A stretch of 64,000 bases of DNA, from assembly GCA_016748015.1 (NCBI GenBank), contig JAAOMT010000011.1, forward strand, positions 62,001-126,000, given 5' to 3'. This document shows positions 1,537-64,000 of this stretch, one piece after another. Numbering within the stretch: the stretch's first letter is position 1; every line of letters starts with the position of its first letter. Under the pieces are notes generated by a model that was not told the DNA's origin, did no database searches, and saw only the letters and a list, made by a program, of their open reading frames with translations. The position numbers and the translations under genes are program-made. Source of the DNA: Geosiphon pyriformis (lineage: Eukaryota > Glomeromycota > Glomeromycetes > Archaeosporales > Geosiphonaceae).

Positions 1537-2508
1537 TGTTACTGGAGGTTTTTGGTCTCTTTTCTTGAATGTTGTTAATGTTGATTTGCTGTGAATTCAC
1601 GTTTTCAAGAAGTAGTTGGACCTCTAGTAACTGAATTTATTTTCAAATTATCTCCTATAATTTGAATTGTTGGACTTATAAGTGGAATGACCAATTCCTT
1701 GCCAGTTACTTTATGTAGTTACATTGTAGTAAACATCAACTCTTTTCCAGGAATTGCTCATCTGAAAGCTCACTAAAAATGTGTAGTTACTTTGCTGTGA
1801 AAGTCAACTCTTCTACAGGAATCTTGTCTGTAAGCTACTCTAATGATTATGATAAGAAAAGAAAAGAAAAATATAAAAAATATAAAAAAAATAAAATTTT
1901 ATCAAGGGAAACGTTTTCTATCTAGGCCTGGAGTCACTAACAGATTATTGAAATTGGTAGCTAATCAATTTCAAAATGTTAGTTGTGATGAAGGAATTTC
2001 AAGTGCAATAATTTAAGGATTTGGTTTTTGAATATTTAATTTTTATTTGAATGTGTAAAAGGTAATTTGTTCTAATTAAGATATCTAAAGTAAGATACTA
2101 TGTTAAGATACTATGAGAAAATACATTTTCTTGAAGAGAAAAGCTCTTTTTTTATACAACTTGTTGTAATACTAGTCTTTAAACTTGTACTTTTCTTTTT
2201 GCTACAATTTGGGTGAACTAAAAATACATTTCGGCAAACTACAAGTTATTTCACTGAACTATTTGATTATTTCAGCCAATTTTCATTAATTTTGGCGAAT
2301 TTTGACTATGTTAAATGGTTCAAGGTATTGTGTAATTTGATCATCTTAATTTCTAGAGTACAAATCGGATTATTGATTGAGTAATGATATTTGATAATTT
2401 GATTAAATAATAAGTAATAATCGAAATAATAATAATATATGCTAATTAATAATAAGAATTATAAGAGTAATTTCATGCTAATTAATAGCTAAAATTCTAC
2501 TGGTAACA
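1537..2508 (-). repeat. Long terminal repeat (5' LTR of the gag element)
   Basis: A 972-bp block bounded by TGTTACT on the left and GGTAACA on the right, so it has the TG...CA ends and near-perfect short terminal inverted repeats of an LTR. It aligns by eye over its whole length to the block at 49998-50810 in the opposite orientation, which defines both ends independently. Since gag lies to the left on the minus strand, this is the 5' LTR and its transcription direction is minus. On its right it abuts LINE ORF1 sequence (2509 onward), so the element was inserted into that LINE. The left target-site duplication is outside the window. Confidence 0.82.
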
Positions 2509-3335
2509 CTGGCAACCAGGTATGCTGTGCTGTAATTGGTTTCAAATCTGAGGAGAATTTGGAGTTTGTTTATTGCACTGAGCTGATATTTAATGATGTT
2601 AAATTATCTTGGGCTAGATTGAACTTGGTTTGCTGTGAAAAATGTGGGCATTTTGGCCATTCTGCTTTGGAGTGTGATGCACCAACTCTGCCTGTCTCTA
2701 AGTCTTCAAGACCTGTTAAAAGAATTTCTTTAAAAGATTATCATCTCTAGCTGGCAAAATTGTATGCTAGGAAGAATGGTTCTATTTTTATACCTGCTGC
2801 TTTTGGTGGCAAATCTTGGGCACAAATAGTCTCACTTGTTTCTCTTTCTAGTGGCCTTCATTTCAACTCTGGTTTTGGGTCTGGTTCTCCTCTTTCTGGT
2901 TCTTTAAGTATTAAGAAAAGCACACCAGTTGTTTAAAATAAATCCTCAATCAATGATTGTCTAGCTTCACTAGAATGTTCCTTAGAATTACTAGCTGATT
3001 AAGTGTCAGATATTGTGCATAAATTAAATGGTGTGGAGCTGGTGCCCCTGGTGCTTATTACTCAAATTGTACTTCTAGTTGCCTCTGTTTCTATATTGGC
3101 ATCACCAAATATTGATATAGTTTTGGATGTCTCTCAGCTGTTTCTTCCTTCCTCTCTTTCAGTATTAGATGACAAAATAGTGAATTTGGGTCTGAGCAGT
3201 TTAAAAGTTCTTATCTTCAAAGTTGGCAGTTTGGAATCTAAGATGATGGCTCTCGAAGTTTTTATTGGCTTAATCTTGGGGAAGTTAGATCTGTTGTGCA
3301 TAAATTTGGGTTCTTTGATACATCTTTTGCATTAA
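2509..3335 (+). pseudogene. LINE copy 1, ORF1 (nucleic-acid-binding) remnant
   Basis: The C-terminal part of a non-LTR retrotransposon ORF1, in one frame with stops after codons ending at about 2750, 2936 and 3002. It carries a complete CCHC knuckle in the stretch CCEKCGHFGHSALEC and aligns to the region around the knuckle of ORF1 in LINE copy 2 (minus strand, near 51.35 kb). The N-terminal half is cut off by the LTR insertion at 2508. The frame ends with TAA at 3333-3335, whose last A is the first base of the ORF2 ATG (3335-3337). It is non-functional. Confidence 0.72.
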
Positions 3336-6300
3336 TGAGTGAGCTCATTTGGAGAGTGGTTACATGCAATACTAGGGATATGTCGAATTTAGCTAAACAG
3401 GAAGACATTGTTTGTTGACATAAGAATTCGGAAAATATAATTTTGATTATTACAGAGACAAAATTAAGGTCTGACATTAAGCCTTAGATCATAAATAAAT
3501 TTGATGGACTTTGGGTTTTTACTTCTGGTTTGGATGTTGGGTTTCATGATGCTAGAGTTGCCATAATTATGAACAATTCTTTGGCTCAGCATGTTTCAAA
3601 AGTGGATGAGATTTCTGGTCGTTTGATTTCTGTGCACTTTTTGTTTAAAAACAAGCTTTCAGTTATGATCTTGGATTTGTATGCTAGTGTATCTATCAAT
3701 ACATGATTTAGTCAAGCTGTTGATATTAATTCTATGGTTTCCAAAGCAGTCAATTCCAGCTCTTTTGTGGTTTTGGATGGTGACTTTAATAAAAATGAGT
3801 CTGGCAAAAGTATGAGTTTCAAGTTCTGTTTGGGTTTGGGCCTGATTAATACTTTTAATGGATACTTATTGGCCAAGGCTCCCACTTGAAACAATTCTAG
3901 AGGTGTTGAGAAAGTGATTGATTTTATTTTAGTGAGTGGAAGTTTGGTGTCTGCTGTGGCATTGTATTGTGTCAATGATGTGTTTGAGTTTTTTGATACA
4001 GATCATAAGTCAGTTTCCGTTTTAATTGGTTTAGGTGGGCTGCTGGATACACATCTTATTAGCATTTACAGACAAGCCAACTGGAACTGGTAAAAGTTCA
4101 AATTAAAGGATGCTGATAATGCTCAATGGTTAAGCTTTAAGAACTGTTCTTCTACTATGTTGTTGGCTAAATCAGACATGTTTGAAGAGGCAAGAGTCAA
4201 TGGTGACTTGAACACAATGTGGAAAATGTTGGAAGAGGCCATAGTACAGGCTGCTGACACAGTTTTCTCTAGGATCTGGTATAGTGAATACGACTGCTTG
4301 AGAAATAAACAATTTTCCAAATTCTTTAAATTAGAGCTGCTTATTGTAAAGGTTATGAAATGTTAGAACTCTGGTAATCTTCTGAATTTCAACTGTCTTA
4401 TTAAAGTCTGGTTGGCTATTGATGTAGTTAAAGCTTCCAAGATTGATGGCATGGTTTTTAATAATGTGAACTTAATGAAATTGATTAAACATTTGTTGGT
4501 GATAAAGAAGGGATATCATAAGTCCAAGTATTGTGAGTCTAAAACTGCTGAGAATACTGCTATAAGAAAGGCAATTGACTGTTATATGGAAAACTTCTGT
4601 TTTGACAAAAAAAAGATGATAAAGAGCATTCTGAAACATCCATTTTGCAAGGTAGTTTTGGATCACTTAGTAGTGGATAATGAGCTGGTGATTGAGCCTA
4701 ATGAGATAAAGCTCAAGATTAATAGAATTATGAAAAAGTGGACTAAGAAGCGATCAGTTCTTCCAAAAATATCTGACTTCTGGACTCGACAATATATGTC
4801 TTTGAATTATGTGGATGATGATGCTTTCTCTGGTACAATGAATAAAATTGGTATGAAGGAATTGTCTCTGGTTGTTGATAATCTACCAAATGATAAAGCA
4901 GCTGGGTTATTAGGGATACTTAATGAACTTTGAAAGCATTATGGTAAGAAAATTTTGGCCTGTCTTTTGAAATTGTTGAATTTGTGTTTGAGTATGGGTG
5001 TAGTTTCTAATCTGTGGAAAGAAACATGGATTTTAATGATTCCAAAACCTTATAAGTGAAATAGTGTTCTGACAAATACTAAACTTATTGTATTAGTCAA
5101 AACAGCACATAAGATACTATCTAAAATTTTATCTAATCAGATATCTTTGGCTTGTAACAAGTTTAATGTTCTTCATGATGACAATTTTTTGGTGTTGAAA
5201 GGTACTTCAATCCAGTCTCCTATTTTTGCTATTGGCTTAGTCATTAAAGATGCTTTGAAGAAAAACAGAGAGCTTTGGTTAGTGCTGCAAGATATGCACA
5301 AAGCTTATAATTCAGTAGGCTGGCATTATTTGCATGTGAACTTGCATCACATCAAAATGTGTGAATGTTTTATCCAATTTTTTGGCAACATTCATGAGGA
5401 TTGGGTCAATAGGGTGATGACTGACTTTGGGCTTTTAGATGGTTATAGGGTACATAATGGGTTAGATTAAGGGGAGGTCTTTTTTCCGCTGCTTTGGAGG
5501 ATATTTTATAATCCACTTTTGTGTGAAATAAAAAGGCATGAGCACTTATGCAGGTATGGGATTGATTTTAAGTTCATAGCAAAGTCTGGCAAGATTGAGA
5601 CAAATAGAGAAAAAACTTCTTTTTTGGCTGTAAGTGCTTTTGTTGATGATACGATTTGGGTTGAAAGTAGTCAGACATCTATGCAGTATATTTTGAACAT
5701 TGCTAGTGAATTTTTTGTAATCAATAACATCTCAATTAATAATAATAAAATGGTAGTAATTTTTATTAATTAGGAAGTTAAGAATGCTTTGCTATTAATC
5801 AATGGATTGCCAATCTCAATTGCTAAAAAAGGTGAGTCATACTGATATCTAGATATCTTCCTGTTAATCAAAAGTCTCTCTAAGCCCAGTTTGGCTCAAG
5901 CCCATAAAGATGTCAGGTTTTTTTCTAATATAGTGTTAAGAAAAGCTATTATGGACAAACAATTTTGTTATTTGGTTTTGGCAGTTTTGCAATCTATTGT
6001 TAGCTATTGTACACAGTTCAGTTTTGTTATATTAGATATGTGTCATAAGTGGAATATTATCATTAGAAAAGGTTTTAAAGCCAAAGCTGGTTTACCATGT
6101 GACTTTCCCAGTGAGGTCTTACACCACCCTTTTTTATATGGTTTGAAGCCCTTTGAGCAAGTACAGTCTGAAAAAAAGCTGGCATCACTGATTTCATTTT
6201 CTAATAGTCATGGCATTCTTGAACATTTATTTGATCATAGATTTTTGGATTTGCAAGTTTTGGAATAGTCTCCTCTGAATCCTTTGCAATTTTCTGTTAA

Positions 6301-8165
6301 GTTGCATATTAGTTCTGTAAACAATTTTTTGGCAGGGGTGGTGAAAATTTTTTTGGAGAATGAATTATCTTTAGCAAACAATTTATCTTGTGTCTTTTGT
6401 GGGTCTAATGGTTTTCTGATGTTTAACATTCTAAGTCAGCCTTTGTATTACAAATCTATTTTTTCATTGAAGTGTTTTGGTGTTGCTTTTGATGACAGAA
6501 TTCTTAACAAGAAAGGGAAGGTAATAGACTGAAAAACATTTTAGTGTTGGAAGTGATTAGACCCAAGAGGCTCTGTGCCTTACTGGTTTTCTTTGATGTC
6601 TGATTTTATGAACAATTCTATTTCTTTGGGGGTTAAAACTGCTACTGCTACTAAGGAAGATGTGCTGAGTGTTTTGGATTCTAATAAGTTCTTTGAGATT
6701 TGTGATAGTCTACTGGAGGTGTGGTTTGATTGTATTGAGATTTATACAGATAGGTCCTTGAGATGTGCTGGTTCTGTTGAGGCAGTAGGTGGAACAGCTA
6801 TGTATTTTTTGGTTATGAATACAAATATTGAAGTTAAGGTCACTGGACTTTTGTTCTCTACTTTAACTGAACTGCAAGCTATGGTGTTGGCTTTGGAGTG
6901 TGTTCCATCTTTATGCTTGGTGGTTTTGTACTCAGATAGTCAATCTGCAATTGATGCCTGCATTTCCAAGGCTTCTTTGACTACACCTAACTTCTGTAAC
7001 CAATGTTAGATTGAAAGATTGCAAATTGTCAATCTCTTTAGGAATAAAAATATTTCAATTAAGTAGGTGAAGGTTAAAAAATATTTAGATGTATTAGACA
7101 ACATAAGGACTAATGCACTGGCTAATAAGGCTACTTCCTTATCTTTTTCTTTGCCAGTTAATATTCAAGAGAGGTTTCTGGTCACTGAGAAAACTGCCAT
7201 ATCTGGCAATGTTCATTATTTTGCTCAGAACTTACACTGGTCAATATGCTGTGCCCATTGGGAAGCTGGTCTGAATTTTGATATAGTTCTGAATGTTATA
7301 ATTAAGAAAATAGATTAAGATGCTACTGTGACAATTTGACATTCTAATTCACATATGCTTTCTGGTTTCACTAGTAAAAAGTCAGCCAATTTACACATGT
7401 ATTTAATGAAGACTGTTTATAAGCAGCTGCTAGTTGTAGTTAGAAAGAGATTGTATAACAGAAGTTATCTTGGTGTTTTGTGTTTGCTGTGTAGCAAAAT
7501 AGAGTTCTCTGATCATGTTTTTGCTTGTTCTGGTAACTTTGGTCTCTGTAGTAACATTTTGGTTAAAACTGCTAAGAAATAGATGTCAATGTCTGGTTTT
7601 TCAGGTTTGTTTCTGTCTGCTATTCTGCTTTTGCTCTCATTATGTTCTTCAAATGTGAGTCTTTATATGGCAGTATGCAAGAGTTTTGTAATGAGAGATT
7701 GATATGCTGAAGCTGTTTTAGTTTTTAAGAGAAAAAAAAAGCTACTCAGACTCTTGTAGAATACATCAGATTTGTGGTAGAGTTGTAGTGCATTTGAATA
7801 TAGTCTATTAGAGCCAAGCACAGAGCAAAGATAAAAAAAGCTGGCTTGATTGGGGATAATGGTATAGTTTCTGGCTTGTCCAGCAGTATAGTTTCTATAT
7901 TGTCAGCTGGTATTGTCCATATGCTTAGTGTTATAGAATTTTTTGCTGTTAGGTTTGGTAGGCACAAATTGTGTCACTTTTTTTCTGGTTTGGGTGGTGA
8001 TGTTTTTGTTACTATAAGTATATAATATTGTCTTGTCTAACCCGAGTAGCTGGCCATATGTAGTTTGTATGTGAGCTGTATTTAGCTAATTTCACTTAGT
8101 TTGGTTCTATGTACTAGATAGTAGTTGGGCTTTACTTGTAAAACTTGTAATAAATAAAAAAATTT
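3335..8165 (+). pseudogene. LINE copy 1, ORF2 (endonuclease-RT-RNase H) remnant with 3' tail
   Basis: From the ATG at 3335 a single frame can be followed to about 7.8 kb with at least 20 stop codons and no clear frameshift. Domains in order: an endonuclease/exonuclease/phosphatase-type domain (GDFN near 3.78 kb, DTDHKSVSV near 4.0 kb), reverse transcriptase (the active-site pair in AFVDDTIW near 5.65 kb), RNase H (IYTDRS near 6.74 kb, a Glu in TLTELQAM, an Asp in YSDSQSAIDA) and a C-terminal zinc motif CLLCSKIEFSDHVFAC near 7.5 kb. It aligns along its length with copies 2 and 3. Many stops coincide with Trp in those copies (for example 3416, 3485, 3704, 3887, 4931). The end at about 8.16 kb is an A-rich tail. 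RNase H points to the I superfamily of LINEs; the clade is not proven. Confidence 0.85.
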
Positions 8166-9317
8166 ATAAATATTTTAAAATAATTTTAAATTTTTCTAAT
8201 TAATTATTTTTTTATAATATATATTTTTTTAAACAATACTTTTTTAATAAGTTGAATTTGTTTAAATATAAAATATAAAATTCTTAAACCAATTTATAAA
8301 TACTTGTTATATTTTTAATGAATTTTTAAGTAGTTTTTAAAAAAGATTACTTTATTAAAAAACTAAATATTTTATTTGTTTTTTACCTTTTTTTAAATTT
8401 AAAATTTTATATAAAAAAAATTGTGAATTTTAAAATATGTTAACAATTTTAATTTATATATTGCAGAATTAATTTGACAAATTATGTAAAATATATTAAG
8501 TTTTTTATAATTTAACTTATTATAAAATTAAATTATTTTAATATTATATTATAAAAACTAAACTTTATTATTTTATTTTAAATTTAAATGTTTTTTAATA
8601 CTATTTATTTACTTATTTTATACTTATTAATACTATTTTTAAGTTTACAAATTAGTTTTTTTAAAAATATTTAAATTTTAAAAATATATTATTTAATAAT
8701 AAAATATATTAATTTGTAATTAATAATTTTAATTAAAATTTAGAACATATTAATATATTTAATTTTGTTAATAATAATAAATTAAATCAATTATTTTGTT
8801 AATAATTTATAAAACAATATAAATATTGCTTTAAAATTTAGTTAATATATATTAATTTAATTATTAATTTAAAGATAAAATATAATATTTTAAATAATTT
8901 TATTTAAAAGATTATATAATTTTATAATTTTTGAAAAACTAATTAAGTTGATTTTTTTGGTTTTAATAAAATATAATTTAATTACATAAAATTTTAAAAA
9001 TCTTAAAATAACTATAATTTATATATTTTCTATATATAATTAATTGTTTAATTAGTTAAAGATTAAATTAAGTTAAAATTATAAAAAAAAATTATATTAA
9101 ACAAATATTTTATGTATAAAAGCAATTAAAATATAATTATTACTAATTATTTTTTTAATTATTTAACAGTATTATTGTATTATTCTTAGATTTAAAAAAT
9201 TAAAGCTTTTAAAAAACCAAAAGTTTATTAATAATCAAATTATTATAAAATTCATTATTATTATTATTTAAATTAAATTTATTAAACTACTTTTTTTTTA
9301 TTTTTAAAATTATAAGG

Positions 9318-9489
9318 TTTTTTATAATTTCTAAGTTAATTTTTATTTTTGTTATATTTGTTTTTTATAATTTCTAAGTTAATTTTTATTTTTGTTATAT
9401 TTGTTTTTTATAATTTCTAAGTTAATTTTTATTTTTGTTATATTTGTTTTTTATAATTTCTAAGTTAATTTTTATTTTTGTTATATTTG
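9318..9489. repeat. Four exact tandem copies of a 43-bp unit
   Basis: The unit starts ttttttataatttctaag and ends gttatatttg. Copies lie at 9318-9360, 9361-9403, 9404-9446 and 9447-9489, identical by eye, followed by an 11-bp partial copy. It is an AT-rich minisatellite, and the lack of divergence suggests recent expansion. Confidence 0.9.
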
Positions 9490-9546
9490 TTTTTTATAAT
9501 ATTTTTTAAAAATTTTCATAAATAATATTAGAAATATTAGAAATAT

Positions 9547-9594
9547 AATAATAATAATAATAATAATAATTTGCATAATAATAATAATAATTTG

Positions 9595-9627
<33 letters not shown>

Positions 9628-9690
9628 TTGTATAATAATAATAATAATAATAATAATTTGCATAATAATAATAATAATAATAATTTAATA
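9547..9690. repeat. Interrupted (TAA)n microsatellite
   Basis: Runs of TAA are interrupted at intervals by TTTGCATAA or TTTGTATAA, giving a compound trinucleotide repeat with its own larger period. Confidence 0.9.
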
Positions 9691-10497
9691 CAAATAATAA
9701 TATTATTTTAATGATTAATTTGGTTTTTAGTAATAATAATTTAAATTATAATTATATAAAAAATAATTTTTTAATTAAGTTTTTTTTTAAAAAAATTTAT
9801 TATTATTTGGTTTTAACTGATTTAAAATAATTAATTATATATAAAAAATATAAATAAATTGTATTTAATTTTAAACATTTATTGTTATATTATATTTATA
9901 AATAATAATTGAATTACATTTTATTAAAACAAATCTTATAAATTCCAAAATCTTTATTATGTTATTATACCAATATTTTAACATTAAATTTCTTAATTAA
10001 AATCATATAAAACTGTTTCATAAATTTTACTTTAATGATTTTATTTAAAGAGATTTATTATAATAAAAACAATTATTTTTAATTAATTAATTAATTAATT
10101 AATTATCAAATCATAAAATTTATCAAAAAAAAAAAAAATTTTTATAAAATTTATATTTTTAATTATAAAATTTTTATTTAAATACAAAAATAAATTTTAA
10201 AAAAATTAAATCTTGTTAAACTTATTTATTATTTTCAATGACTATTCAATTCATATGATGTTTAAACTATTATATATATATATGATTATAATTCCATATC
10301 ATGTAAATTCAATTAATTTCTAATTGATGGATTCATTAAAATTTTAAAATTCTGTTTAATCAATTTAATGATACTTTAAAACCTTTAGAAATTTTAGTAA
10401 ATTAACAGAAATGGTGATAATTTTCTTCAAATGAAAATATCTTTTGTGAATTGGTACCTATATATATAGATTTTATGAGACAGATTTAACGAAACCA

Positions 10498-45435: not shown

Positions 45436-48400
45436 TCAGTGTTTGGCCCGGACCAACCAAACATCATCCCAAAATGCTAAACAAAACTCACACACAAAGC
45501 TCACAATCCTTTTAGCACCCTCCTTAGAATCTTTAAAGACTGAGATAGACTTACAAAACCATTCATCGAAAACAAAACCCTTACACAGAGCAACACTAAC
45601 TCCAACCTCAGAAACACAAGAAGCTAAGGCCTGTAAGACACATGAAGAAAAGCGAGAAAGGCCAGAAAGAGCCTCCCAAGTTGAAGCATGTGCGCCCAAC
45701 AAACGAGCACGGCCAACGGCATCCTGAGGACACGAAAAGACATGATCCGAGGTCTCAACATTACCACAAAACAGACAGACCACACTGGGGTAACTCCTGT
45801 CATATAAACGCTTGTACACAGCAACAGGAAGCCGATGATGGAGAGCCTTCATAAAGTAAGTACGACATCCCGCCATGCACATGCTAGTAAAACCGGATGC
45901 CAAGTGAGAATTGGGGTGCCACACCATAGAAGACATAGACCAATTGACATCAGCACGCAAACTATCATCCATAACACGAGAACCCACTCCAATCTCCCAA
46001 CAAGCTTGGTAAAATGACTGGAAAACATCACAAACAAAGTGTCTAGAGTTACCAGAAACCACCGTGCCACCAGCACATAGAAAACGTTCACTGACTAAAT
46101 GAGGTAGGCGCCAAGCAGAGCGAGCAGCACCCTTGGCAAGTGCATCAGCATGCTCGTTGCCTGAGACACCTAAATGACCTTTCACCTTAACCCAATTCAC
46201 ATCCAAATTCTTATGATGAATGACGGTGGCAATGTAATGACGCTCGATCCAACAGCGGTTCCTGAAATCCGGACGAACCAGTAAAGACTCCGACCTACAT
46301 GCATCTAAAGCAGCCTGGCTATCCGAGAACAAGTCAATCAAATGAGAAAAAGGAATACACTCAAGGGCCAAAGCTATGGCCTGCAGTTCCGTCAGAGTAG
46401 AAGAAACCAAACCAGACACCTCAACACCCAAACCCAAGTTAATGTCTTCAAAAAAAGCGGCAGCACCTGCTTTCATGTCAGCAGTGCTCAGACCAGAAAG
46501 AGACCCATCCATATACACAGAAAGGTGGGCAGCATCAATAGTTGGCAAAGTGTCACGAATCACACCAAAATTATGAGAAAAACAAATATCAGACACAGCT
46601 TAACCATCTACTAAAGAAGAACTTGAGGAGAGAGGAACAACACCACCAAGAAAGCGAACGGAAAGATCAAACCAGAAAGGAACTGGGCCACGAGGGTTTA
46701 GCCTCTTCCAGCGTTTGAAGGTACCCCAACTGAAAACATCACCATTATGGTCACGAAGCTGTTCCACAAAAGCAATTCCATAACACCTGAATGAAGGGAT
46801 GCACTTGAAAAAACAGGATTCACCAAGAACCAAAGACATAGGAGTACCACACCGACGACGAAAAGCACAATCCAGAGGGCCTCCCAAAGACAAATTACAC
46901 CCAGAAAAAATGCGAACCACACCCGCCAAAAAATTATCCGAGAGACTGATACCAACACGAACTGGAAACAGCAAAAGATGACAAGGACGCCAGCTGAGAA
47001 CTTGGAGGTCATGAGACCTATGAGAAAACAAGCGACCCAAGACACCAGTAGAATTCACAAAAGCAACAACGGAGGCCGATTTACTCTCAGCCTGTATCTG
47101 TTTGAAAGTTTTTAAATTGTACAAAGAGGGGTGATAAAGTGCGTCACTGAGGAAATCACGTGGCAATCCAGACTTGGACTTTAAGACCTTGCGAACCAGA
47201 GCATCCCATTTACTACAAACACCAACAGAAACAAAACTGAACTGAGTCCTGTAGCTAATGATAGGGAAAAAAACTGCAGACACCAAATATGTACACTGTT
47301 TGTCCGAAATTGCCTTTCTTAAAACAAGATTCGCAAAGAACCGTACATCAGCCTGGGCCTTAGCCAAGCTGGGCTTCGAAAGACCCTCAGAAGACAAAAA
47401 AATACCCAAATAGCGATGAGATTCCCCTCTCTTGGCAATAGAAATAGGTGCACCACTAATAGTCAAATGAGGATTCAGCACCTGGCAATTGATGAGAATA
47501 GTCACCGTTTTGTTATTGTTGATAGAAATATTATTAAACCTAAAAAACTCGCTAGCAACATCAAGGATGCGTTGTGTAGCAGCCTGGCTGCTACCAACCC
47601 AGATAGTATCATCGACAAAAGCGCCAGCAGTAAGAAACGAAGACAGCCCAGCTCGAGAATCCACCCGGCCAGTCCTTGATATGAAATGAGAATTCAACCT
47701 ATAGCCATACACACTATCCTGTCTCTTGACCTCACACAAAAGCGAATCATAAAAAATACGCCAGAGAAGAGGCGAAAAAACTTCCCCTTGATCCAGCCCA
47801 TTGTGGACACAATACCCATCAGTCAAGCCAAAGTCGGTCATTACTTTGTTGACGTGACCATTGTGAATACTGCCAAAAAATCTAATAAACCTGTCACACA
47901 TTTTGATTCTGACCAGACTCCTCCTAAGATGTTCTCAACCAACCGAGTCATAAGCCTTGCGCATGTCCTGTAAAACCAGCCAAAGTTCATGGTTCTTTTC
48001 CAAGGCATCTTCAACCACAGAACCAATAGCAAAAATGGGAGATTGAGTCGTCGTACCCTTCAAAACCAAAAAATTGTTCTTATGAAGAACATCAAAAGTG
48101 CTGCAAGCCAGAGAGATCCTATCCGAAAAGATCTTGGAGAGAATCTTGCAGGCCATTTCAATTAAAGCTATAGGGCGGGTGTTCATGAGAACTCCCTCCC
48201 ATTCATATGGTTTAGGAATCATCAAAACCCAAGCTTCTCTCCAAGGCCCAGGGACCGACTCACCAACCAAACAGAAATTCAAAAGCACCAAAAGCATATC
48301 CAAAACAGATTTGTCACAATGTTTCCATAATTCATTGGAGATACCAGAAAAACCAGCCGCTTTTCCATCAGGAAGATCCTTAACAACAGCTAACAACTTA

Positions 48401-49923
48401 TCAAAACTAATTAAACACATGACATCAGAGAAAGCACGATCGAATACGTAATCCAAAGGCCGATATTGACAGGCCCAATCCTCAGATAAGTTAGACACCA
48501 CCTCACATTTTCTGGTCCATCCCTCCATAATTTCGTCCACCTTAGACTTAACCAAATCAGGCTCTAAAATCAACTCATCTTCTACAACCAAATAATCCAG
48601 GACCACCTTGCGAAGAGGACGCTCCAAAACACTCCTAATGGTGTGACCCTTGTTCAGCTCAAAACTCTCTATTCTTTTACCAATAGCTTGCTTGATCGAG
48701 GATTCCTCAGCACACTTGGATTCCGCTAACTTGAAGGAGCGGTATGATTTTCTAGCTTTGGCCAGTGCAGAGCGAATAAGATCAAAATTAAAACCTGAAA
48801 GAAACAGAGACTTAACCACTAATGCACCAGGGGAGTCGAGTCTGTGCCATACCTCTAACAAAGAAGCAAAACCATTACTAGAAGCCAAACGTGAAGCCTT
48901 GACCAACTTAGAAATCAGCAGCTCTAGCTTGTGAAACCTAGAAGAAGTCTTGGTGAACACATCATCAAAACCTTTGAACCATTTTTTCTTAAATGTACCA
49001 CCTGCCGAAAGAACCATAATCTTGTGAACAATGTTCCACATAGCATCCACATCTGAAAATTTTACTGCCACACCGAAAGCATCCGAGAACATAGAGACAT
49101 TAGCAGCTGAGACATCTCTGAACTCCAACCACTTAGCTTCATTGGCACTTTTGACATCAAACTTCCAACGATCTTTATTCACTTGCTTGCGAAGAGAATT
49201 CAAACGCGTATCCAAGAGTCCACCCAGACCCAAATCCACTGAAACAGCTTGATGGTCTGTGTCAAAATGCTCACTGACATTCAAAATCTCACGATGCACT
49301 ATCGCATTGACAAGACTTGAGAAGACAAACACATAATCAATTGTTTTCTTAACACCTCTAGAATTTTCCCATGTGGGCATTTTTGCAGCCGGACTGCCAA
49401 CTAAAGAATTGACCAGACCCTGATCAAAGCATCTTTTGAAACTTGCATTTTTATGAGAGCTGTTTTCATTAAAATTGCCACCAAGAATGATGAAAGAAGA
49501 TTCGTTGACAGTCTTTGCAATGAAAGAATTGATTTCACCAGCTTGAGAAAACCAAACCACCAAAGAAGCACCAGCATAAAGCCCCAAAATTGACACAGAA
49601 AGTTTATTCTTAAAAAGTAATTTAATGGAAAGGAGCTGACCAGGCACCTCAGAAACCTTGCACACATGACGAGCCAAAGAAATGTCCATGATAACAGCAA
49701 CATCCGCACCCAAGTGACCAGAGTCCAAACCAGAAGTGAACACTCAGACACTGTCGAACTTGTCAGCAATCCACGAACAAACCCTACTCTTTAATTTTGT
49801 TTCAGTAACGATAGAGACTAAATTGTTCATTTCCTTATGCCACCTAATAATGTCTTCTTGCTTAGCAGGATTGTTCATGCCCCTGACATTGCACGTAGCA
49901 ACTTTCCAGACTAAACTGCTCAT
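45436..49923 (-). pseudogene. LINE copy 2, ORF2 (endonuclease-RT-RNase H)
   Basis: One frame of about 1,495 codons from ATG at 49923 to the stop at 45436, broken by only three stops and no frameshift: TGA 49744-49746 (Trp in copy 1), TGA 47935-47937 (Trp in copies 1 and 3) and TAA 46600-46602. Domains in order: endonuclease (ATCNVRGMNN at the N-terminus, GGNFNE, FDTDHQAVSV), reverse transcriptase (LVLQDMRKAYDS, the active-site AFVDDTIW, then SINNNKTV), RNase H (SVYMDGSLSG, TLTELQAIAL, LFSDSQAALD) and a C-terminal zinc motif CLFCGNVETSDHVFSC. It is the best preserved copy in the window and may have been active until recently. It lies on the strand opposite to its inserted solo LTR. Confidence 0.88.
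49920..49923 (-). other. ATGA overlap: ORF1 stop and ORF2 start of LINE copy 2
   Basis: The minus strand reads CAATGAGC. TGA (49920-49922) closes ORF1 and ATG (49921-49923) opens ORF2 in another frame. Copy 1 has the equivalent TAATGA at 3333-3338. This is the layout of termination-reinitiation coupling, so ORF2 could be translated by ribosomes finishing ORF1. Confidence 0.75.
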
Positions 49924-49997: not shown

Positions 49998-50810
49998 TGT
50001 TACCAGTAGAATTTTAGCTATTAATTAGCATGAAATTTCCTTTATAATTCCTATCATTAATTAGCATATATTATTATCGTTTCGAATTTTACTTATTATT
50101 TAATCAAATTAGCAATTATCATCATTTAATCAATAACCCGATTTGGACCATAGAAATTGAGATGATCAATTTACACAATACCCTGAACCATATAACATAG
50201 CCAAAATTCGCCGAAATTAATGAAAATTGGCCGAAATAATTCATAGTTCAGCGAAATNNNNNNNNNNNNNNNNNNNNAAATCACTTTTTACATATCTCAA
50301 ATAAAAATTAAATATTCGAAAACCAAATCCTTTGATTATTACACTTGAAATTCTCTCAACACAACTAACATTTTGAAATTGATTAGCTACCAATTTCAGT
50401 AATCTGTTAGTGACTCCAGGCCTGGATAGAAAACGTTTCCTTGACAAAATTCTATTTCTTTACGTTTCTTTTATTTTTCTCTTTCTTTTCTTATCATAAT
50501 CATTTGGGTAGCCTACAGACGAGATTCCTGTAGAAGAGTTGACTTTCACAGCAAAGTAACTACACATTTTTTAGTGAGCTTCCAGACAAGCAATTCCTGG
50601 GAAAGAGTTGACGTTTACTACAACGTAACTACATAAAGTAACTGGCACGGAATTGGCCATTCCACTTATAAGCCCAGCGGTTCAAATTATAGGAGATAAT
50701 TTGAAGATAAATTCAGTTACTGGAGGTTCAACCACATCCAGAAAACGTGAATTCACAGCAAACAAGCATCAACAACATTTAAGAAAAGAGACCAAAAACC
50801 TCCGGTAACA
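49998..50810 (+). repeat. Solo LTR inserted in LINE copy 2 ORF1
   Basis: The block starts TGTTACC and ends GGTAACA, and is flanked on both sides by CCAT (49994-49997 and 50811-50814), a 4-bp target-site duplication. It aligns along its length to the LTR at 1537-2508 in opposite orientation; it is shorter mainly because of an assembly gap (N at 50258-50277). There is no internal region or second LTR, so it is a solo LTR, the product of LTR-LTR recombination. From the orientation of the gag-bearing copy, its transcription direction is plus. Confidence 0.9.
50258..50277. other. Assembly gap inside the solo LTR
   Basis: A run of 20 N. Comparison with the LTR at 1537-2508 suggests more than 20 bp (roughly 170 bp) are missing here. 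Confidence 0.95.
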
Positions 50811-52600: not shown

Positions 52601-55430
52601 AAAAAACTTCTTTCAAAAAAACTTTTGACTCTTTTTTGGGAATTTTGGACGAAGGAGAAAAAGAAGTTTTTCTAATAAAATTTCAATGAAAAAAATTTTT
52701 CTATTATTAAAACAGCTAAACAAAATATTTTGACACTGTTTTTTTTAAATATTAATAATAAAAAACTGTTTTTAGCAGTTTTTAAAGCATTTTTTATCTT
52801 TAACTGATGATTTTTTTTAATCAAAATTTTTTCTAAAAAACATACTCAAATTAATTTTATTTTTATTTTTATTTTTTTTAAGAGTTTTAAAGTATTTAAA
52901 AACAGATCAATTAACAAACTAGTATTTTTTACTATTATTATTAATATTATTATTATCTTTTTGCAAATAGCCAAAAAGATCAAAGAATTAAAAAAATAAT
53001 TATTATTATTTATATTTGCTATTTTTATACTGAATTATTTTGTGGTTTTAAATAAGATCTTAAATAAAAATTTTTAGCAGCAATCAGTTTTTTTTTAATA
53101 TGAACAACAATAATAATAACACATTTTTTATAATAAATTAAGATTAACTATTGGCTGTATTATTAAATATGGTTTTTTAGCAGATTATTATTGGTTTTAA
53201 ATATAAAACAACTTATTAAATTTTCTAATCTTAAGAATTGAATTGATCAAATAAAAATTGAATTAATTTTTGTTCTTTTGTTTTTTGGTATTGTCTTTAG
53301 TAATATTTCGAAAACAATTTTTAGTTATTAAAAATTTTTTGGGTAAATGGCTTCTACTTTAATATTTGATGTTATTTTCAAACTCAAATTAATCTTAATA
53401 AATACTTTATTTTATTTTTTGTCTGGTTTTATTGAACTTAAGTTAATTTTTAAAAACAATATTATGTTGTTTTATGTAAATTTTGCTTTTAAGATTTCTT
53501 TGGTTATTATTATTAAAATTTTTATTGATAGTTTTTTTTTGACTATACTTAAGATTGTAAAATCTTCTATAATAACTTTTGGTTCTCTTTTTTCTATTTT
53601 TATCACACTTTATAATGTTTTTATTAGTATATTTTTTAATAACATAAAAAATACTTTTGGTATTTTTGGTGTTATTATTTTGTTAAATTAAAGTCTACTG
53701 GTTTGTGACAATATATTATTGTCAATTTTAAGAGATTTTTTTAAGACCAAATTAATCGATTTTTCTTGGTTGTACTAACTTTAAAATTAATAATATGATT
53801 TCTTAAGTTAGTGGCTATACTTGATTTATTCTTTGTTTTTTGGATTTTTATTATTATTAATGCTTTGTTATTATTACTTTTAAATTTAAAAAAATACTTA
53901 AGCTTGCTATAATAAAAACTAATATTCTGTATAAATATTATATTTGATAGAAAACTCTTAAATATTACTATTACTATAAGTATTAAAGTCTGAATTACTT
54001 GTTTGCTAACTGTATAATATTGTTACAAATTAGAGTAACAAGCTAATAGATAATAAAGAAGAACAAAATTATAGAATAATAGAAATAATTAAAAAAAATT
54101 CAACTTTAAGAAACAAATTAAATAAGTATAGATTCAATATATGAAATTAGTTTTATAAAATATTTTAGTTGTTAATCTTTTTAAAAGATAATTAAAGAAT
54201 CTGAAAGTAGAAAAATAATTCATATTGTTAATAAATAATAACATACTAATATAATTCTATGCTTTATATTGACACTTTTAAAATTTAATATTAGATATTA
54301 AATATATTCTTTAATTATGTTTTATTTAATAATTTTTAAATGTTACAATTAAACAGATCAAAAAAAAGTAAGTAAATACCAACAAGTAATTTTTATTCTA
54401 AAATATTCAAATACTTGAAAGTAAAGAATGGAAAAAAAAAACAAGTAATAAGAAAAAAATTGAATTAATAGATATTGTTTTATTTTTTTGATTTTTTATA
54501 TATATTTTTTTATCTAAAAGACTCATTGTTTATATAGTTATTGAAAATAGTTAATAACCAGATTATTAATTAGATTAATAATTAGATTAATAATTAGATT
54601 AATAATTAAGTTAACAGTCAAATTAATGATCCAGTTATTGATCAGATTAATAATTACTATTTAAAAATAAGATGGCAAATTATATAACATTAGTGGCTAA
54701 TATATATAATAACTAATAAAAATTATGAGTTTCAACTATAATAATATTATTTTTATATTTGTAATTGGCTTTAAGTTTTTTATGTTATTTTTTGTTGATA
54801 AAAAAACTTTTGTTAAGACTTTTGTTTTTTTGGCTCTTCTTTTTGCTGTTTTTTCAGTTTTATTTTTTGTTGATTTTTTAATTAAGTTTAAATTAAATTT
54901 TTTGAAATTTGAAATTTTTAGTTTGATTATTTTAATAAGATTTATTGTTGAGTTTATTAATTATTTTGGTTATTTGTTTTTTAAATAAGCATATTAACAA
55001 AATTTTTTGAATGAAAAAAAATTTGTTTGCTGTAAGTTTTATTGTTAATAAGTTTTTTAAGTTTCTAATTGGTATTTTCAAAGACTTTGTATATTTTAAA
55101 ACTAAAGTTAATTTTAATAAGATAAACTATAATAAAATACCAGTTGTAAAGTTTTTTTTGTTAAGTAAAAATACTATTAAGTATATTATTGCTTTATAAT
55201 ACATATTAAATAATAAGATTAGTAATAGTATTAAAACAACTAAGTTGTTTTTTAATATTTTTAATTTTAATTTTAGAAATTTGAATAGTATTATTAAAAA
55301 AATTGTGAATTAGATTTATTTTTAGCTCTTTTTGTTTTAATATAATATTGTCTTAACTGGTTTGAGTAATTGATTACATATAAAAAGTGCATAATTTATA
55401 TTTAGTTAAGATTATTTAGTTTAATATATA
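52601..55430 (+). repeat. AT-rich degraded repeat, family member A, plus spacer
   Basis: About 52.63-53.75 kb aligns by eye with 59.03-59.96 kb and in part with 58.43-58.96 kb, same orientation. An open frame at 53347-53691 resembles a retroelement ORF1 in tempo (VELK..., ...FGIFGV) and shortly after it, one base out of frame, a stretch reads KSTGL-stop-QY, echoing the GLWQ motif of LINE copy 2 ORF1. Two other Phe/Ile/Lys-rich frames lie at 54725-54988 and 55011-55199. I take this as LINE sequence pushed to high A/T, but the identity is not proven. A short array of taattagatta units is at about 54553-54608. Confidence 0.5.
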
Positions 55431-55431
55431 T

Positions 55432-58317
55432 ATTTTTTTTTATTATGTTTTATGAGTGAGGTCCAAACACTACCTAAAGCTATATACCAAAGAAATGATA
55501 TAAACTAAGTGTAAATCATGCTTTTCCTACACGTAACCAGCCACTCAGACCAATCAGGACAACACTACACAGTTATATGTACCAAAACAGAATCACCAAC
55601 ACCAGAAAAGAAAGAACAATGTTTACGAAAGCCAAAACAAATACCAAGTAGCCTAACAATGCCAGCCGAAAACCTAGAAGCCGAGCCAGGGACCGAGATA
55701 GAAACTGAACCATCAAGTGGGATGAGATTATTTTTTTTCATAAAAGCACAATGCTTAATCCTAACCAACCAAATATCATTCCTAAAAGCAAAACTAAGGG
55801 AATGCACAAACTCAACAATTTTCGAACTAGCAGCCTTGTGACATTTGAAAACAGAGATAGCTTCACGAAGCCACTCAATAAAAACAAACCCTTTAGAGAG
55901 AGCCGTAAACACAGAAACATCAGAGACACTAGAAGACAGCAATCGCAGCACACAGGAAGAAGAGAAAGACAGGCCAGAAAGCACCATCCAAGATTTTGAA
56001 CATGTATCCAGTATCTGAAGATGTGCAAAGACATCAGCCTTGTAAAAGAAAACATTATCTGATGTCTCCACCTCACCACAATATAAGCACAATACACTGG
56101 AGTATTTTCTGTCATACAAGTGTTTATGAACAGCAGCAGGCAGCCAATGGTGCAATGCCTTCATGAAAAAACTGTGCACATCTGCTGTGGGCTTGCTAGT
56201 GTGGCCAGTGGCCATGTGTGAATCAGGATGCCATACCAGTAAAGAGCAGGACCAATCTACGTCTGCGAACAAACTGGCAGGCAGAAATTTAGAACCAGAA
56301 CCAATCTCCCAGTGCGCATGACTAACAGAATGAAAAATATCGTAAACAAAATGCCTGGAATTGCCAGAAACAGCCCCACCGTCTGCCAACAAGAAGCGCA
56401 CATGCGATTGGAAAGGAAGGAACCAGCCCGAGTGAGAAGAAGCATCAGCTATAGCATCAGCACGTTTATTTCCAACCATACCAGAGTGGCCTTTTACTTT
56501 GTGCCATTCAACCAATAAGTTTCTGCCATGAATAATGTTTATAATATGCAGGCGTTCGACCCAACAACAGTTGTGAAAATCCAGATGCACCAGACCCAAT
56601 TCCGACTTGTAGGCATCCAGAGCAGCTTGACTGTCAAAAAACAAATGAACACAACTAGAATGGGGGACACACTCCAGTGCCAGTGCAATAGCCTGCATTT
56701 CCGCCAACGTAAAAGACAGCAGACCCAAAACTCCAATGCCCAAACCCAGATCAATGTCACTGAAAAAAACACCAGCCCCAGCCATGCAATTCTTGGTACC
56801 TAGGTTTGTCAGAAACCCATCCGTATAAACAGAAATGCTACTAGGAAGTACTTGGGAAAGCTGATCATGAACCAACACAAAGCCAGGAGAGGTGAAAATA
56901 CTCTGAAGACCCATACCAGCCAAAGCAGGAGAAGGGGCATGAGGAGAAGACGTATCAGACAGGAACTTGACAGAAAGCATGAACCACTCAAGAGTTGGGC
57001 CACGGGAGTTCAACCTCTTCTACTGCTTGAATTTGTACCAGTCAAACACGGCTCCATGATGATCACAAAGCTGGTCAACAAAGGCGATGCCATATCGTCG
57101 GAGTGAAGGAAGAAGCTTGACAAATTTAAACTCACCGAGAACGGCAGACATGGGTACCTCACCACAAAGCCAAAATGGACTACCAAAAGACCCACTCAAA
57201 GATAAGTTGCAATCGAGGAGAACACAAATGGCACCCGCTAAGAAGTTATTCAAAGGGCTGACTCGTACACAAACAGGAACACTCAAAGAATGAATAGGGC
57301 ACCAGCTCGAAACCTGTAAGTCATGAGACCTGTGGAAAAACAGGCAACTCAGGATTCCCACTGAGTTTGTAAAACAAATAAGGAAAGCAACCTTACTTTC
57401 CGATTGAATCTGGATAAAAGATTTCAACCCATAGAATGAAGGATGATGGATTGTGTCACTAAGAAAATCAAGAGGCAATCCAGACTTGGATTTCAAGCCT
57501 CTACGAATCAAAGCATCCCACTTATTACACACACTGACAGGAACAAAACTAAACTGAGTTCTATAACCGATGATGGGGTGGAGAACAGCTGACACTAAAT
57601 AAAGAAATTGTTTGTCCAATATGGCCTTTCTTAGAACCAAGTTAATAAAAAAACAAATATCTGAATGGGCTTTTGCCAGGCTGGGCTTTGACAGTTCCTT
57701 AGAAGACACGAAGATACCCAGATAATGATGAGATTTGCCTGGCTTAGCTATAGAAATAGGGGATTCACTGATGAAAAGAGAAGGTGCACTAGCACGGCTA
57801 TTAATTGGAATGGCCACTGTCTTATCATTATTAATTGAAATATCATTGATGCGAAAAAACTCACTAGCCATATCAAGAATGTGTTAAATGGCAGACTGAC
57901 TGCTATCCATCCAGATCGTATTGTCCACAAAAGTGCCTGCAGTGAAGAAAGACGACAAACCAGCCTGAGACTCCACACGGCCTGTCTTAGCAACAAAATA
58001 AGAATTTAACCTGTAACCACACACACTCTCCTGCCTTTTAACTTCGCACAAGAGAGGATCATAAAATATATGCCAAAGAAGAGGCGAAAACACCTTCCCT
58101 TGGTCCAAGCCATCATGTACATGATACCTATCCGTCAATCCAAAATCAGTCATAATTCGGTTTGTACGACCACCATAAATATTACCAAAAAACCTAATAA
58201 ACTGGCAGCACATTTTTATCCTAATCAAACTTTTCTTAAGATGATTCCAACCGACCGAGTCATACGCTTTCCGCATGTCTTGTAAAACCAGCCAGAGCTC
58301 CCGGTTTTTTTCAAGAG
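55432..58317 (-). pseudogene. LINE copy 3, 5'-truncated ORF2
   Basis: About 920 codons of ORF2 lie in one frame from 58317 to the stop at 55565, with only two internal stops: TAA at about 57881-57883 (Gln in copy 2) and a TAG near 57017-57019 (Trp in copy 2). It begins inside the reverse transcriptase (ALEKNRELWLVLQDMRKAYDS) and keeps the active-site FVDNTIW (the second Asp of the usual DD pair is Asn here), RNase H (SVYTDGFL) and a zinc motif with the last Cys changed to Tyr. The 3' end has an A-rich tail (about 55432-55445). 5' truncation is typical of LINE insertion. It is dead on arrival. Confidence 0.85.
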
Positions 58318-61300: not shown

Positions 61301-62416
61301 TATATAATTATATTATTATCTTTTAGTACATCTATGACCAAAAAATTTATTAATAAGTTCATAACTTTAGACTTAACAATAAGCTTTTTAGATCTTTTAT
61401 TTGAGTTTTTTAAAGTATAAATATGTATATTTTAATTTTTTTTAATATTAAAATAATTTTTTACTTTAATTTTATTAGTATTTACAATTTTAACTAAAAT
61501 ATTAGCCAGTCTTATAATTATAAATAGATTTGTGTCAAAAGAAATAGTTAAGTATAAAAACAGATAAAAAGTCTTTTTAATTTTATTATAAATAAGAAAT
61601 TAATAAGACAAAAATTTTTTTTTAATATTATTATCATCAATAATTTTTTGAATAATTGTATTTATAAAATAAACACAAAATTTATTTTTAATATCTGATT
61701 TAAAAAAATTTAATTGTTTTAAGCTAATTATATATTATTTATAATATAATTTATATTTAATATATATTTTAAATTACATTTGTAATAATATAAAACAATT
61801 TTTTAAATTAATTAATATTAGATATTATAAAATTAATTAATTAATTATATATTTAACAATTTATTTAATATTTTTAAAATTAATATTTTTTTTAAAAAAT
61901 TTAACAATAGTAATTTAAAATTAATTACATTAATTAAATTTAATCTATATTTAATATGTTTTTTTGTTACAATTTTTTAAAGTTGAATTTATATTGTTTT
62001 TAATTTTTGTCGTTAACATAAATTTATAAATATTAATTTCTATAAAACAAATTTGGTATAACCTGTATTTATTAATTTAAGATTGATTGAATAATAAATA
62101 TTTGAAAATAAATAATTGTTAATTAAAATCTTAAATACAAGGATTTTTATAAATTAAACAAAATTTTTATTGATTATAGTTAATCATTTTATTCATTAAA
62201 GTTAGTTAAAAAACAATTAAAATACATTATCATATGATAATAATGATATAAACGATCATAACGGTAAAACATACATTCTTAATATTTAGGAGTTTAGTTC
62301 TCTAAAGAAATGAAAGTCAAAAAACAACCAATCGTCCAAAATAATAATAAGGAAACCCTTTGCAATTAATAACTCTCTCGCTTAGAGGAATAAAAATAAC
62401 CATTTTTTAAATCATC
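58318..62416. other. AT-rich desert with two members of the degraded repeat
   Basis: Nearly pure A/T. 58.43-58.96 and 59.03-59.96 kb are related to 52.63-53.75 kb. From 60 kb on I recognise no repeat and no gene. Short Phe/Ile/Leu-rich open frames (such as 59656-59919) have the composition expected of mutated DNA. Confidence 0.65.
59030..59960 (+). repeat. AT-rich degraded repeat, family member B
   Basis: Shares ordered landmarks with member A: ttaaatattaataataaaaa, ttttaaagcattttt, the (ATT)n tract, ttttgcaaat and ccaaaaa, then a frame with similar residues (KLVLVNFLFYL versus KLILINTLFYF). Differences in the aligned parts are largely A-for-G and T-for-C in member B. Confidence 0.65.
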
Positions 62417-64000
62417 TTAACTAAAATAATGATTGCAAAGAGCCGATTCTTCATCTGTTTCAAACCATTTTATAGTTAAATATCAATAAAAACAATTAAA
62501 ATCATTATTAAAACAAATTTAAAGTGCTTACTGATTTCGTTAATTTTATTAGAACTTAGATAACTTGAGCTATTGGAATATTCCGAATCTGAAAGAAAGC
62601 GTTTAAATTAAAAAAGCTTTTTACCTGTTAAAACAATACTAAATAAAAGACTTACCATATATATTTGAGTTTGATTGACTTCTGTAACTTATCATATCAC
62701 AGGTAACTCTTTTTTTAGGGATAGGTTCCTCTAAGTTACAGTTATCGCGAGCAGCAATAATTCTTTGTTGAAGTTCTTCTGCAGTATCACGACAATAAGG
62801 ATCCTGATGCCAATTTTTTTCAATTATTTCTTGAATCCATTGAGGTGTATGATTTTCGATTGTGGGGCGCTTTCCACAAATTACATCGTACGTAGGATTT
62901 TTAGTATCATTCCAAGGTCTTTCTCCCGAAATTATTTCCCAAGAAATGATGGCAAAAGCGTAAATGTCGCTATATTTGGTATGAGACCATAAGTTAAAAA
63001 TTTCGGGCGCTAGGTATTGGACAAGACCATAAACGTTGCCAGATTGTGGAGAGTCATTGACAGAACGACATAATCCTAGGTCAGCAATGGCCACTTTTAA
63101 GGGGTTTGTTTTTAGAACAAGGATATTTCCAGGATGTAAGTCCCCATGCACCAGTTCTGATTCATGTATAAACCTTAGGCCACTAGCGATTTGAAAAAGA
63201 ATACGAAGAAACATGCCCCAAGTAAGAGTGTTTTTGTTATTCTTGAGAAAAGCTTTAAGGTCCCCGTGCTCCGCAAATGGCAAAACCATAATAAATTCAT
63301 CGGTTATGATATCTTTGGTTATTCCATAGCATTCAAGGATATATTTGCAAGAAGCACTTTTAAGATGCGCAATAAACTATTGAAATCCGTTTTCTAGTGT
63401 TAGAAAGAAAAACCAGATTGACAAAATCACACAGATTTCTTAAAAGGAAATACCTCATCTGAATTAATAAAATCTATTCTTTGGCTATCTTTAAGATATT
63501 TCAAAGCAACTTTTGTAGCGCCACTCCGTTCATGTTTTTGATTTTTCTCGTCCCAAAATAGAATTTTGCCTCTCGCCCAACTACCTTTTTTAACAACACC
63601 AAATCCTCCCTCTCCCACCTTATCTAAAAATTCAATCTCGTTGGGAGAAATCCATTCCAGGCAGCTTCTGGAACTTTCAGACCATGCCTGTGTATAATAT
63701 ATATACTGATCAATATTATTATTTCCACTACTCCATGTTCCCGAACTCTTTGAAAATCTTGAAGATTCACAAGAGTTACACCAAAGTGGATCTTTTATTC
63801 TATCATAGCATTCTGAACATTTCGGCAACCCGGCTTTAAAGTTATCATTACTCTTATCAGTATCACAAAATGGACATATAGGAGATCCAATAATGATTAT
63901 CAAGTTGCCACATCTAAGACACTTGAATTCATCTGAAAGCTGGTCAAAGAAAGCTTCAAAGTCTAAAAATTCTCCTCTAGAATTATTTGGGTTTTTTAAA
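62417..64000 (-). CDS. TKL-type protein kinase with N-terminal zinc fingers (partial)
   Basis: The gene runs off the right edge; its frame is open at 64000. Visible exons: 64000-63454, 63376-62656, about 62600-62538 and about 62453-62417; the last two are tentative. The N-terminal part has Cys pairs (CLRC, CPFC, CSEC, WCNSC) suggesting zinc binding. The kinase domain follows: Gly loop GEGGFGVVKKGSW, VAIK-type Lys in VALKYL, gatekeeper region MVLPFAEHGDL, catalytic loop HGDLHPGN, metal motif DLG in place of DFG, APE in LAPEIF and SDIYAFAIISWEI. HGD instead of HRD makes it a non-RD kinase. Architecture matches the large zinc-finger TKL families of Rhizophagus; substrate unknown. Confidence 0.85.

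Follow-up and report, generated by a model that had tools for sequence, protein, structure and literature searches.

How does a LINE (long interspersed nuclear element) come to be filled with stop codons while its reading frame stays in register? The question is raised by a 64,000-nucleotide stretch of the genome of the glomeromycotan fungus Geosiphon pyriformis (contig JAAOMT010000011.1 of assembly GCA_016748015.1, positions 62,001 to 126,000, C149:62001-126000 in our numbering; hereafter the window), in which one such element, copy 1, is interrupted by stops throughout its ORF2-type frame. An earlier note on this stretch had attributed the stops to C-to-T mutation, either by repeat-induced point mutation (RIP) or by deamination of methylated cytosine. 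Our comparison of copies across the genome confirms the observation, namely that the LINE copies are hypermutated from C to T, and partly supports the interpretation. Positions are those of the window, and its features are listed in Table 1.

Relatives of copy 1 were sought in the 124.7 Mb assembly (406 contigs). The best 39 of 1902 first-look candidates, copy 1 excluded, were scored and proved 79-86% identical to it over positions 4400-5400; the best 20 loci, fetched at ~7 kb each, form together with copy 1 a nearly star-like set of 21 copies with 80-88% mutual identity, referred to here as LINE1. The earlier note had relied on the two other LINE copies of the window, copies 2 and 3, as yardsticks. 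These are only ~66% identical to copy 1, too distant for site-by-site inference, and a comparison with them alone was rejected in favor of the closer relatives elsewhere in the genome.

The frame of copy 1 (frame 2) holds 23 in-frame stops, in line with the 20 or more announced beforehand, and the expectation of hardly any frameshifts was borne out: over 5.66 kb, copy 1 differs from the majority of copies by one 1-base deletion and no insertion. The source codon of each stop was judged from 18-20 other aligned copies, using the five commonest codons per site sorted by hand. TGG was the likely source at 17 of the 23 stops, where the other copies mainly show TGG or codons derived from it, CAA or CAG at two (5468, 5771), and a CGN arginine codon at four (3704, 5843, 6542, 6554), sites at which TGN and CAN, the two products of CGN, both occur among the copies; the stops do lie mostly at Trp codons and otherwise at Gln or Arg, as had been claimed. 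The other 20 LINE1 copies carry 8-27 stops each within the covered part of the frame, with 0-6 indel runs per copy in copies spanning 2.9 to 6 kb. However, we rejected the stop positions as proof of a C-to-T bias, the use to which the earlier note had put them: TGG, CAA, CAG and CGA are the sole one-transition routes to a stop, and any transition-rich process gives the same positions. Because transitions create stops only at Trp, Gln and Arg codons, the informative evidence is instead the lack of transversion-born stops (0 of 23, all fitting G-to-A or C-to-T) and the mutation spectrum over all sites.

That spectrum is dominated by C-to-T changes on both strands. Scored against the majority (at least 70%) of the other copies, C>T changes were found at 1876 of 12713 sites and G>A changes at 3099 of 20874 in the 21 LINE1 copies, 0.148 per site in each case (p = 0.82 for the difference), with A>G at 0.032, T>C at 0.016 and every transversion type at 0.0077 or less. 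C>T and G>A together account for 4975 of 6900 changes, and A>G and T>C for 1405; in our view, part of the latter are C>T changes misassigned at sites where most copies had already changed, and the counts are given uncorrected. The same pattern was recovered for copy 1 alone (348 changes: 269 C>T/G>A, 63 A>G/T>C, 16 transversions) and for 30 copies, nine having been added over the middle 4 kb (6426 changes: 4785 C>T/G>A, 1215 other transitions, 426 transversions). An IQ-TREE 12.12 fit to 18 of the 21 rows, three short ones being left out, agrees with the counts (C>T 2.21, G>A 2.22, A>G 0.81, T>C 0.38, transversions at most 0.07). Deamination of a single strand as the whole story was rejected, given the equality of C>T and G>A in LINE1.

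A second, younger family shows the excess in purer form. A 1 kb query from copy 2 (46600-47600, minus strand) was used to retrieve this family, LINE2; the best 39 of 1849 candidates were scored and are 89-94% identical. The set analyzed comprises nine copies over 1 kb, copy 2 and the best eight, a choice that favors copies of like age. Among its 292 changes, 274 are C>T or G>A, 11 are A>G or T>C and seven are transversions, and in the six lowest of the listed pairs, 58-64 transitions per kb separate the copies without a single transversion. With seven transversions over 8758 sites, non-CpG C>T changes (165/3445, 4.8%) are ~60-fold more frequent per site. Median pairwise transition to transversion ratios (ti/tv) in the two LINE families are 12.3 and 59. 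An IQ-TREE 12.12 fit for LINE2 was set aside, as it placed rates on changes nearly absent from the data. The dominance of C:G to T:A changes on both strands, as in RIP, is thus common to both families, and the comparison that the earlier note had proposed, transitions against transversions and indels across copies, came out as it foresaw.

Sequence context sets this process apart from RIP of the Ascomycota type. In LINE2, C>T changes affected 79 of 384 CpG sites (20.6%), 56 of 1265 CpA sites (4.4%), 48 of 1122 CpT sites (4.3%) and 61 of 1058 CpC sites (5.8%), so that CpG stands far above CpH (p = 1e-23) and no CpA preference was found in this family (56/1265 versus 109/2180 for CpT and CpC combined, odds 0.88, p = 0.51). 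A context test on CpA and CpG had been suggested, and only its CpG half was positive. CpG is the most mutable context on both strands in both families, at 5-6 times the CpH rate: the two families are close in this ratio (5.6 for LINE1, 5.9 for LINE2) despite the ~3.7-fold heavier decay of LINE1. The 70% majority rule drops nearly all ancestral LINE1 CpG sites, and CpG was therefore counted by columns, at sites still reading CG in one copy or more (134 in LINE1, 39 in LINE2), which underrates the loss in LINE1. Such a constant ratio at unequal decay indicates one process seen at two ages. The CpG products TG and CA are nearly equal in number (977 and 1011 in LINE1, 77 and 82 in LINE2). Outside CpG, cytosines preceded by a pyrimidine mutated about twice as often as those preceded by a purine (YCH 0.182 versus RCH 0.106 in LINE1; 0.063 versus 0.030 in LINE2, p = 7e-6 for LINE2).

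Duplicated genes of similar divergence show no such excess. A protein-kinase exon of the window was compared with seven paralogues over ~600 bp (39 other paralogues having been scored), yielding 289 changes of which 97 were C>T or G>A and 106 transversions, with C>T about twice T>C. Pairwise ti/tv was 1.12-2.32 in the 28 pairs, with identities of 82-91.5% in the 13 pairs printed, and C>T (97/1570) exceeded transversions (106/4281) only ~2.5-fold per site. Likewise, a pair of DNA-methyltransferase genes at ~90% identity gave ti/tv of 2.0 and 2.4 for the two stretches that align. For a pair of AT-rich repeats within the window (52673-53667 and 59027-59947), ti/tv was 3.0 with 26 gap openings, as expected of ordinary non-coding decay. 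The LINE spectrum is not the usual mix of neutral decay, as the earlier note had argued, and the core of that note, C-to-T change on either strand with few indels, is upheld by the counts. Mutation of this kind was found in the two LINE families and not in the kinase and methyltransferase gene copies; unique intergenic and other single-copy DNA was compared by composition. The observed/expected CpG ratio was 0.10 in LINE1, 0.47 in LINE2, 0.43 in a further repeat, element E, 0.77 in the kinases, 0.79 in an adaptin open reading frame (ORF) and 0.96 in the gene-rich part of the window (18001-45000).

The damage occurred copy by copy; master lineages are near-normal and the tips are not. Across 210 LINE1 pairs, transitions per kb equal 132 plus 1.35 times transversions (r = 0.73), where the slope is an ordinary ti/tv and the intercept implies a transition load carried by each pair whatever its age. 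Between LINE1 groups picked by hand from the identity table, fixed differences had ti:tv of 33:9, 95:32 and 200:64 (ratios 3.0-3.7), and singletons had 735:80 (main group) and 1142:56 (group A), ratios of ~9 and 20. Because the fixed differences are far less biased than the singletons, the lineages that transpose appear near-normal, each copy having been mutated singly. The C>T load per LINE1 copy amounts to 10.5-19.5% of C/G sites.

We consider methylation-coupled C-to-T mutation directed at LINEs the best account of these data, with a probability of nearly 60%, because CpG leads in fixed proportion at two ages, the gene copies examined escape it, and the genome contains DIM-2-like and DNMT1-like loci. 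Once a LINE copy inserts, cytosines on both of its strands would be turned to thymine far faster than any other change accrues, until the frame is filled with stops. Cytosine methylation would be laid on LINE chromatin, most strongly at CpG and more weakly elsewhere, with pyrimidine-preceded cytosines favored about twofold; DIM-2-like and DNMT1-like enzymes may lay it down, followed by unrepaired deamination. The transposable elements of Rhizophagus irregularis are reported to carry dense mCG (PMC8647823), 32.5-49.5% of cytosines are given as methylated (PMC8298701), and in Zymoseptoria a DIM-2-dependent mutator produces mitotic C>T changes in repeats (PMC8016269).

The candidate enzymes were sought by a genome search with PF00145, which gave 10 matches at seven loci, all 12 candidates having been scored. 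Motif VI reads ENV at all six readable loci (L051, L052, L054, L071, L072 and L073). No EQT or EET motif VI of the RID type was found at these six loci, the seventh, L055, being without that stretch, and a very divergent RID could escape such a search. Locus L052 has an upstream BAH domain, and a 64-residue piece of it best matches 9baq, a 1244-residue DNA (cytosine-5-)-methyltransferase that we take to be Neurospora DIM-2; L073 shares the SPCQGFS and ENV stretches of L052, a likeness of motifs alone. L054 matches DNMT1, and L071 and L072 contain a PPCQPYTR stretch, presumably that of DNMT2. L051 has a methylase domain and, by eye, no BAH-like stretch upstream, the methylase pieces alone having been scanned. 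L051 and L055 are the gene pair used above as a control, a duplication ~32 kb apart on C318: L055 aligns to L051 at 1456-1689 and 1877-2786 with nothing between. Since the missing stretch holds the PCQ and ENV motifs of L051, L055 looks catalytically dead.

Several observations weigh against methylation-coupled mutation of LINEs. The load per LINE1 copy is over-dispersed (chi2/df 3.5) and shows no correlation with the number of transversions (Spearman -0.02, p = 0.93), which steady decay need not give. In LINE2 the strands are unequal (C>T 0.080 versus G>A 0.058, p = 0.007), and neighboring changes share a strand above expectation in 18 of 21 LINE1 and five of nine LINE2 copies; this effect is small (z from -1.9 to 2.65, above 2 in four of 30 copies) and hints at an enzyme working along a strand. 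A preference for pyrimidine-preceded cytosine is also more typical of cytidine deaminases that act on single strands than of methylation. Element E, which lies in or beside LINEs, has 111 transversions among 417 changes (C>T 0.110, G>A 0.151 per site) and is older or less affected than the LINEs. The AT-rich, non-LINE stretch at 58401-62000, which includes one repeat of the AT-rich pair, has a CpG observed/expected ratio of 0.09, a value resting on scarce C and G. The kinase control consists of coding sequence subject to selection. The link to methylation is drawn from sequence context and from other species, and the Zymoseptoria DIM-2 mutator acts at CpA, a context without preference in our data.

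Slow, wholly passive loss of 5-methylcytosine by deamination, involving neither an active mutator nor a role in defense, would agree with CpG as the top context, with its steady ratio to CpH between families of unequal age, and with C>T and transversions both being higher in LINE1 than in LINE2. Methylated transposons of vertebrates and plants lose CpG before other contexts, with TpG and CpA arising in similar amounts, and the near-equal TG and CA products of LINE1 follow that pattern; here, however, non-CpG cytosines also mutate far above the transversion background. The ~60-fold excess of non-CpG C>T over transversions in LINE2, set against ~2.5-fold for all C>T in the kinases, exceeds what passive deamination would be expected to leave, and leads us to lean towards more than passive loss, so that we hold the purely passive account to be unlikely. 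It is possible, and proposed here only tentatively, that this glomeromycotan fungus has a transposon-directed hypermutation system of its own, which would recognize LINEs by chromatin or small RNA and not by mere duplication, and would act at CpG and pyrimidine-preceded cytosines on both strands, independently of canonical RID. An APOBEC-like cytidine deaminase acting on cDNA or single-stranded LINE DNA during transposition could account for the twofold pyrimidine preference in both families, the slight same-strand excess and the slight surplus of C>T over G>A in LINE2. Yet deamination of cDNA should favor one strand, whereas C>T equals G>A in LINE1, and CpG is the strongest context; PF08210 had no match in the genome, in a search that was also silent in all control genomes. 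We regard such a deaminase as very unlikely.

True RIP, a premeiotic, homology-triggered and RID-dependent process that mutates any duplicated sequence, shares with our data the both-strand C:G to T:A change in repeats, the stops throughout and the few indels known from Neurospora and other Pezizomycotina, and the slight same-strand excess of neighboring changes would suit it. The clade of arbuscular mycorrhizal fungi has been credited with a RID-type gene (PMC8298701), contrary to a review table in which RID is listed for Ascomycota only (PMC13297926); the motif VI of Masc1/RID is EQT or EET (PMC6709928). L051, in which no BAH domain was visible, may be the gene meant by the former, though it lacks the diagnostic triad. 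Three testable features of RIP nevertheless fail, namely CpA preference (CpG and pyrimidine-preceded cytosine being favored instead), action on any duplication (the duplicated genes checked, with as much as 91.5% identity, escape it, which rare crossing could also yield) and an EQT/EET RID at the loci with a readable motif VI. Composite RIP index values are likewise negative, -0.60 for copy 1 and -0.46 for gene-rich DNA of the window. The process is therefore RIP-like in its result, but it is not RIP as defined in Ascomycota, and true RIP in this fungus appears quite improbable; of the two mechanisms that the earlier note had offered, strict RIP is not supported and deamination of methylated cytosine fits better. 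As for ordinary neutral decay under a genome-wide C>T spectrum, the AT-rich window and the twofold C>T over T>C in kinases would suit it, but the low ti/tv of the kinases, the gene pair and even the non-coding AT-rich repeat pair contrasts with the LINE medians, and CpG is hardly depleted in gene-rich DNA of the window. An assembly artefact fares no better, as 30 copies at separate places carry changes of their own, unlike base-calling error, and both explanations are highly improbable.

The elements themselves are non-LTR retrotransposons with RNase H, both ORF2 domains being present in copy 2: ORFs at the stretch aligned with copy 1 match PF00078 (RVT_1), one above and one below the cut-off, and the next ORF matches PF00075 (RNase_H). 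In copy 1, positions 4412-4933 alone were scanned for these domains and gave no match, and its assignment follows from alignment to copy 2. Matches to copy 1 among the 20 fetched loci start at 2509-2525 in 17 cases and later in three, and mostly end within 7796-8583, with two earlier ends at 5439 and 6663. At 16 of the 20 loci (L031-L041 and L043-L047), shared sequence of as much as 1.1 kb (0.7 kb for L040) lies upstream of the copy 1 start point. Because element E stands there instead, copy 1 is 5'-truncated or has had its 5' part replaced.

Table 1. Features of the window discussed in the text
Feature	Position	Strand	Remarks
Element E	1537..2508	+	AT-rich repeat of ~1 kb, separate, abutting copy 1
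LINE copy 1 (LINE1)	2509..8165	+	5.66 kb, common to other genomic copies
ORF2-type frame of copy 1 (frame 2)	3335..7800	+	Register kept, 23 stops; from translation and codon comparison
Part of copy 1 aligned with the reverse-transcriptase stretch of copy 2	4790..6114	+	Self-BLAST to 48468-47144, 66% DNA identity
LINE copy 2 (LINE2 family)	45436..49743	-	GC ~0.41-0.44, less decayed; Pfam RNase_H and RVT_1
LINE copy 3	55422..58312	-	68% identity to copy 2 (self-BLAST); RNase_H in 55565-57013
Protein-kinase exon	62639..63289	-	Pfam; control for the ordinary spectrum, with seven paralogues

Element E (~970 bp), which has a sharp end at 1537 and joins copy 1 at 2508/2509, may be a small mobile element. 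It interrupts LINE copies at varied places (L034 near 6498; L045 near 1932 and 603; L048 near 2462; L042 near 4046 and 1136) and also lies beside copy 2, at 49998-50810. The stretch at 58401-62000 has the sole clearly positive composite RIP index, 0.24, among ten sets measured. GC content is 31% in the window and 9-14% at 8001-10000 and 58001-62000. Elsewhere in the genome, among the best 39 of 5551 candidates scored for 5.8S rRNA, a single full match, close to the end of a contig, scored 153.5 bits and two weak ones scored 49.9 and 45.2 bits (C320:1044151, C317:1122026, C202:54219); the full match looks AT-shifted next to other fungal 5.8S, and the weak ones may be decayed rDNA. The 5.8S end resembles Glomeromycotan sequence, and the low GC of the window and the large kinase family likewise point to Glomeromycota as the probable group. 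The target of the arbuscular mycorrhizal primer AML2 occurs with one mismatch next to the 5.8S gene, whereas that of FLR3 occurs on a different contig alone, also with one mismatch; an Archaeosporales-like fungus would agree with this. Neocallimastigomycota, considered on account of the extreme AT stretches, were set aside; CBM_10 had no match, in a search equally silent in the control genomes.

Decay of transposons by C>T mutation is already known; what is new is this context, the lineage and the sparing of gene duplicates. The Zymoseptoria tritici DIM-2 mutator, with more than 95% C>T in methylated repeats, has a possible counterpart in the DIM-2-like loci found here, but CpG leads in Geosiphon and CpA there (PMC8016269). 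Among Basidiomycota, the CpG-biased, RIP-like hypermutation of Rhizoctonia solani AG8 is similar in its C>T changes and lack of CpA bias and differs in that genes and repeats are equally affected, whereas the checked gene paralogues are spared here (PMC4014442). The TpCpG bias of Pucciniomycotina was not seen in LINE2 (TCG 28/147 versus ACG 28/93). A k-mer-based, kingdom-wide screen from 2025 restricted RIP-like signatures to ascomycetes (PMC12543289), and RIP is cited as undetected in Gigaspora (PMC8647823). We found no report of such a signature in arbuscular mycorrhizal fungi (Rhizophagus, Glomeromycotina, Gigaspora) in the openly licensed literature, consulted in part; subscription papers may hold one.

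Alignment of copies makes the RIP-like outcome plain; the composite RIP index nevertheless stays negative and is unable to reveal it. If this fungus does have a hypermutation system of its own, RIP indices based on CpA would read such genomes as free of RIP. A C-to-T process may also help to explain the AT-richness of Glomeromycotan genomes, for which a mean GC of 27% is given (PMC11134847). Glomeromycota have long been regarded as asexual, and the killing of transposons by mutation becomes a testable question in this lineage.

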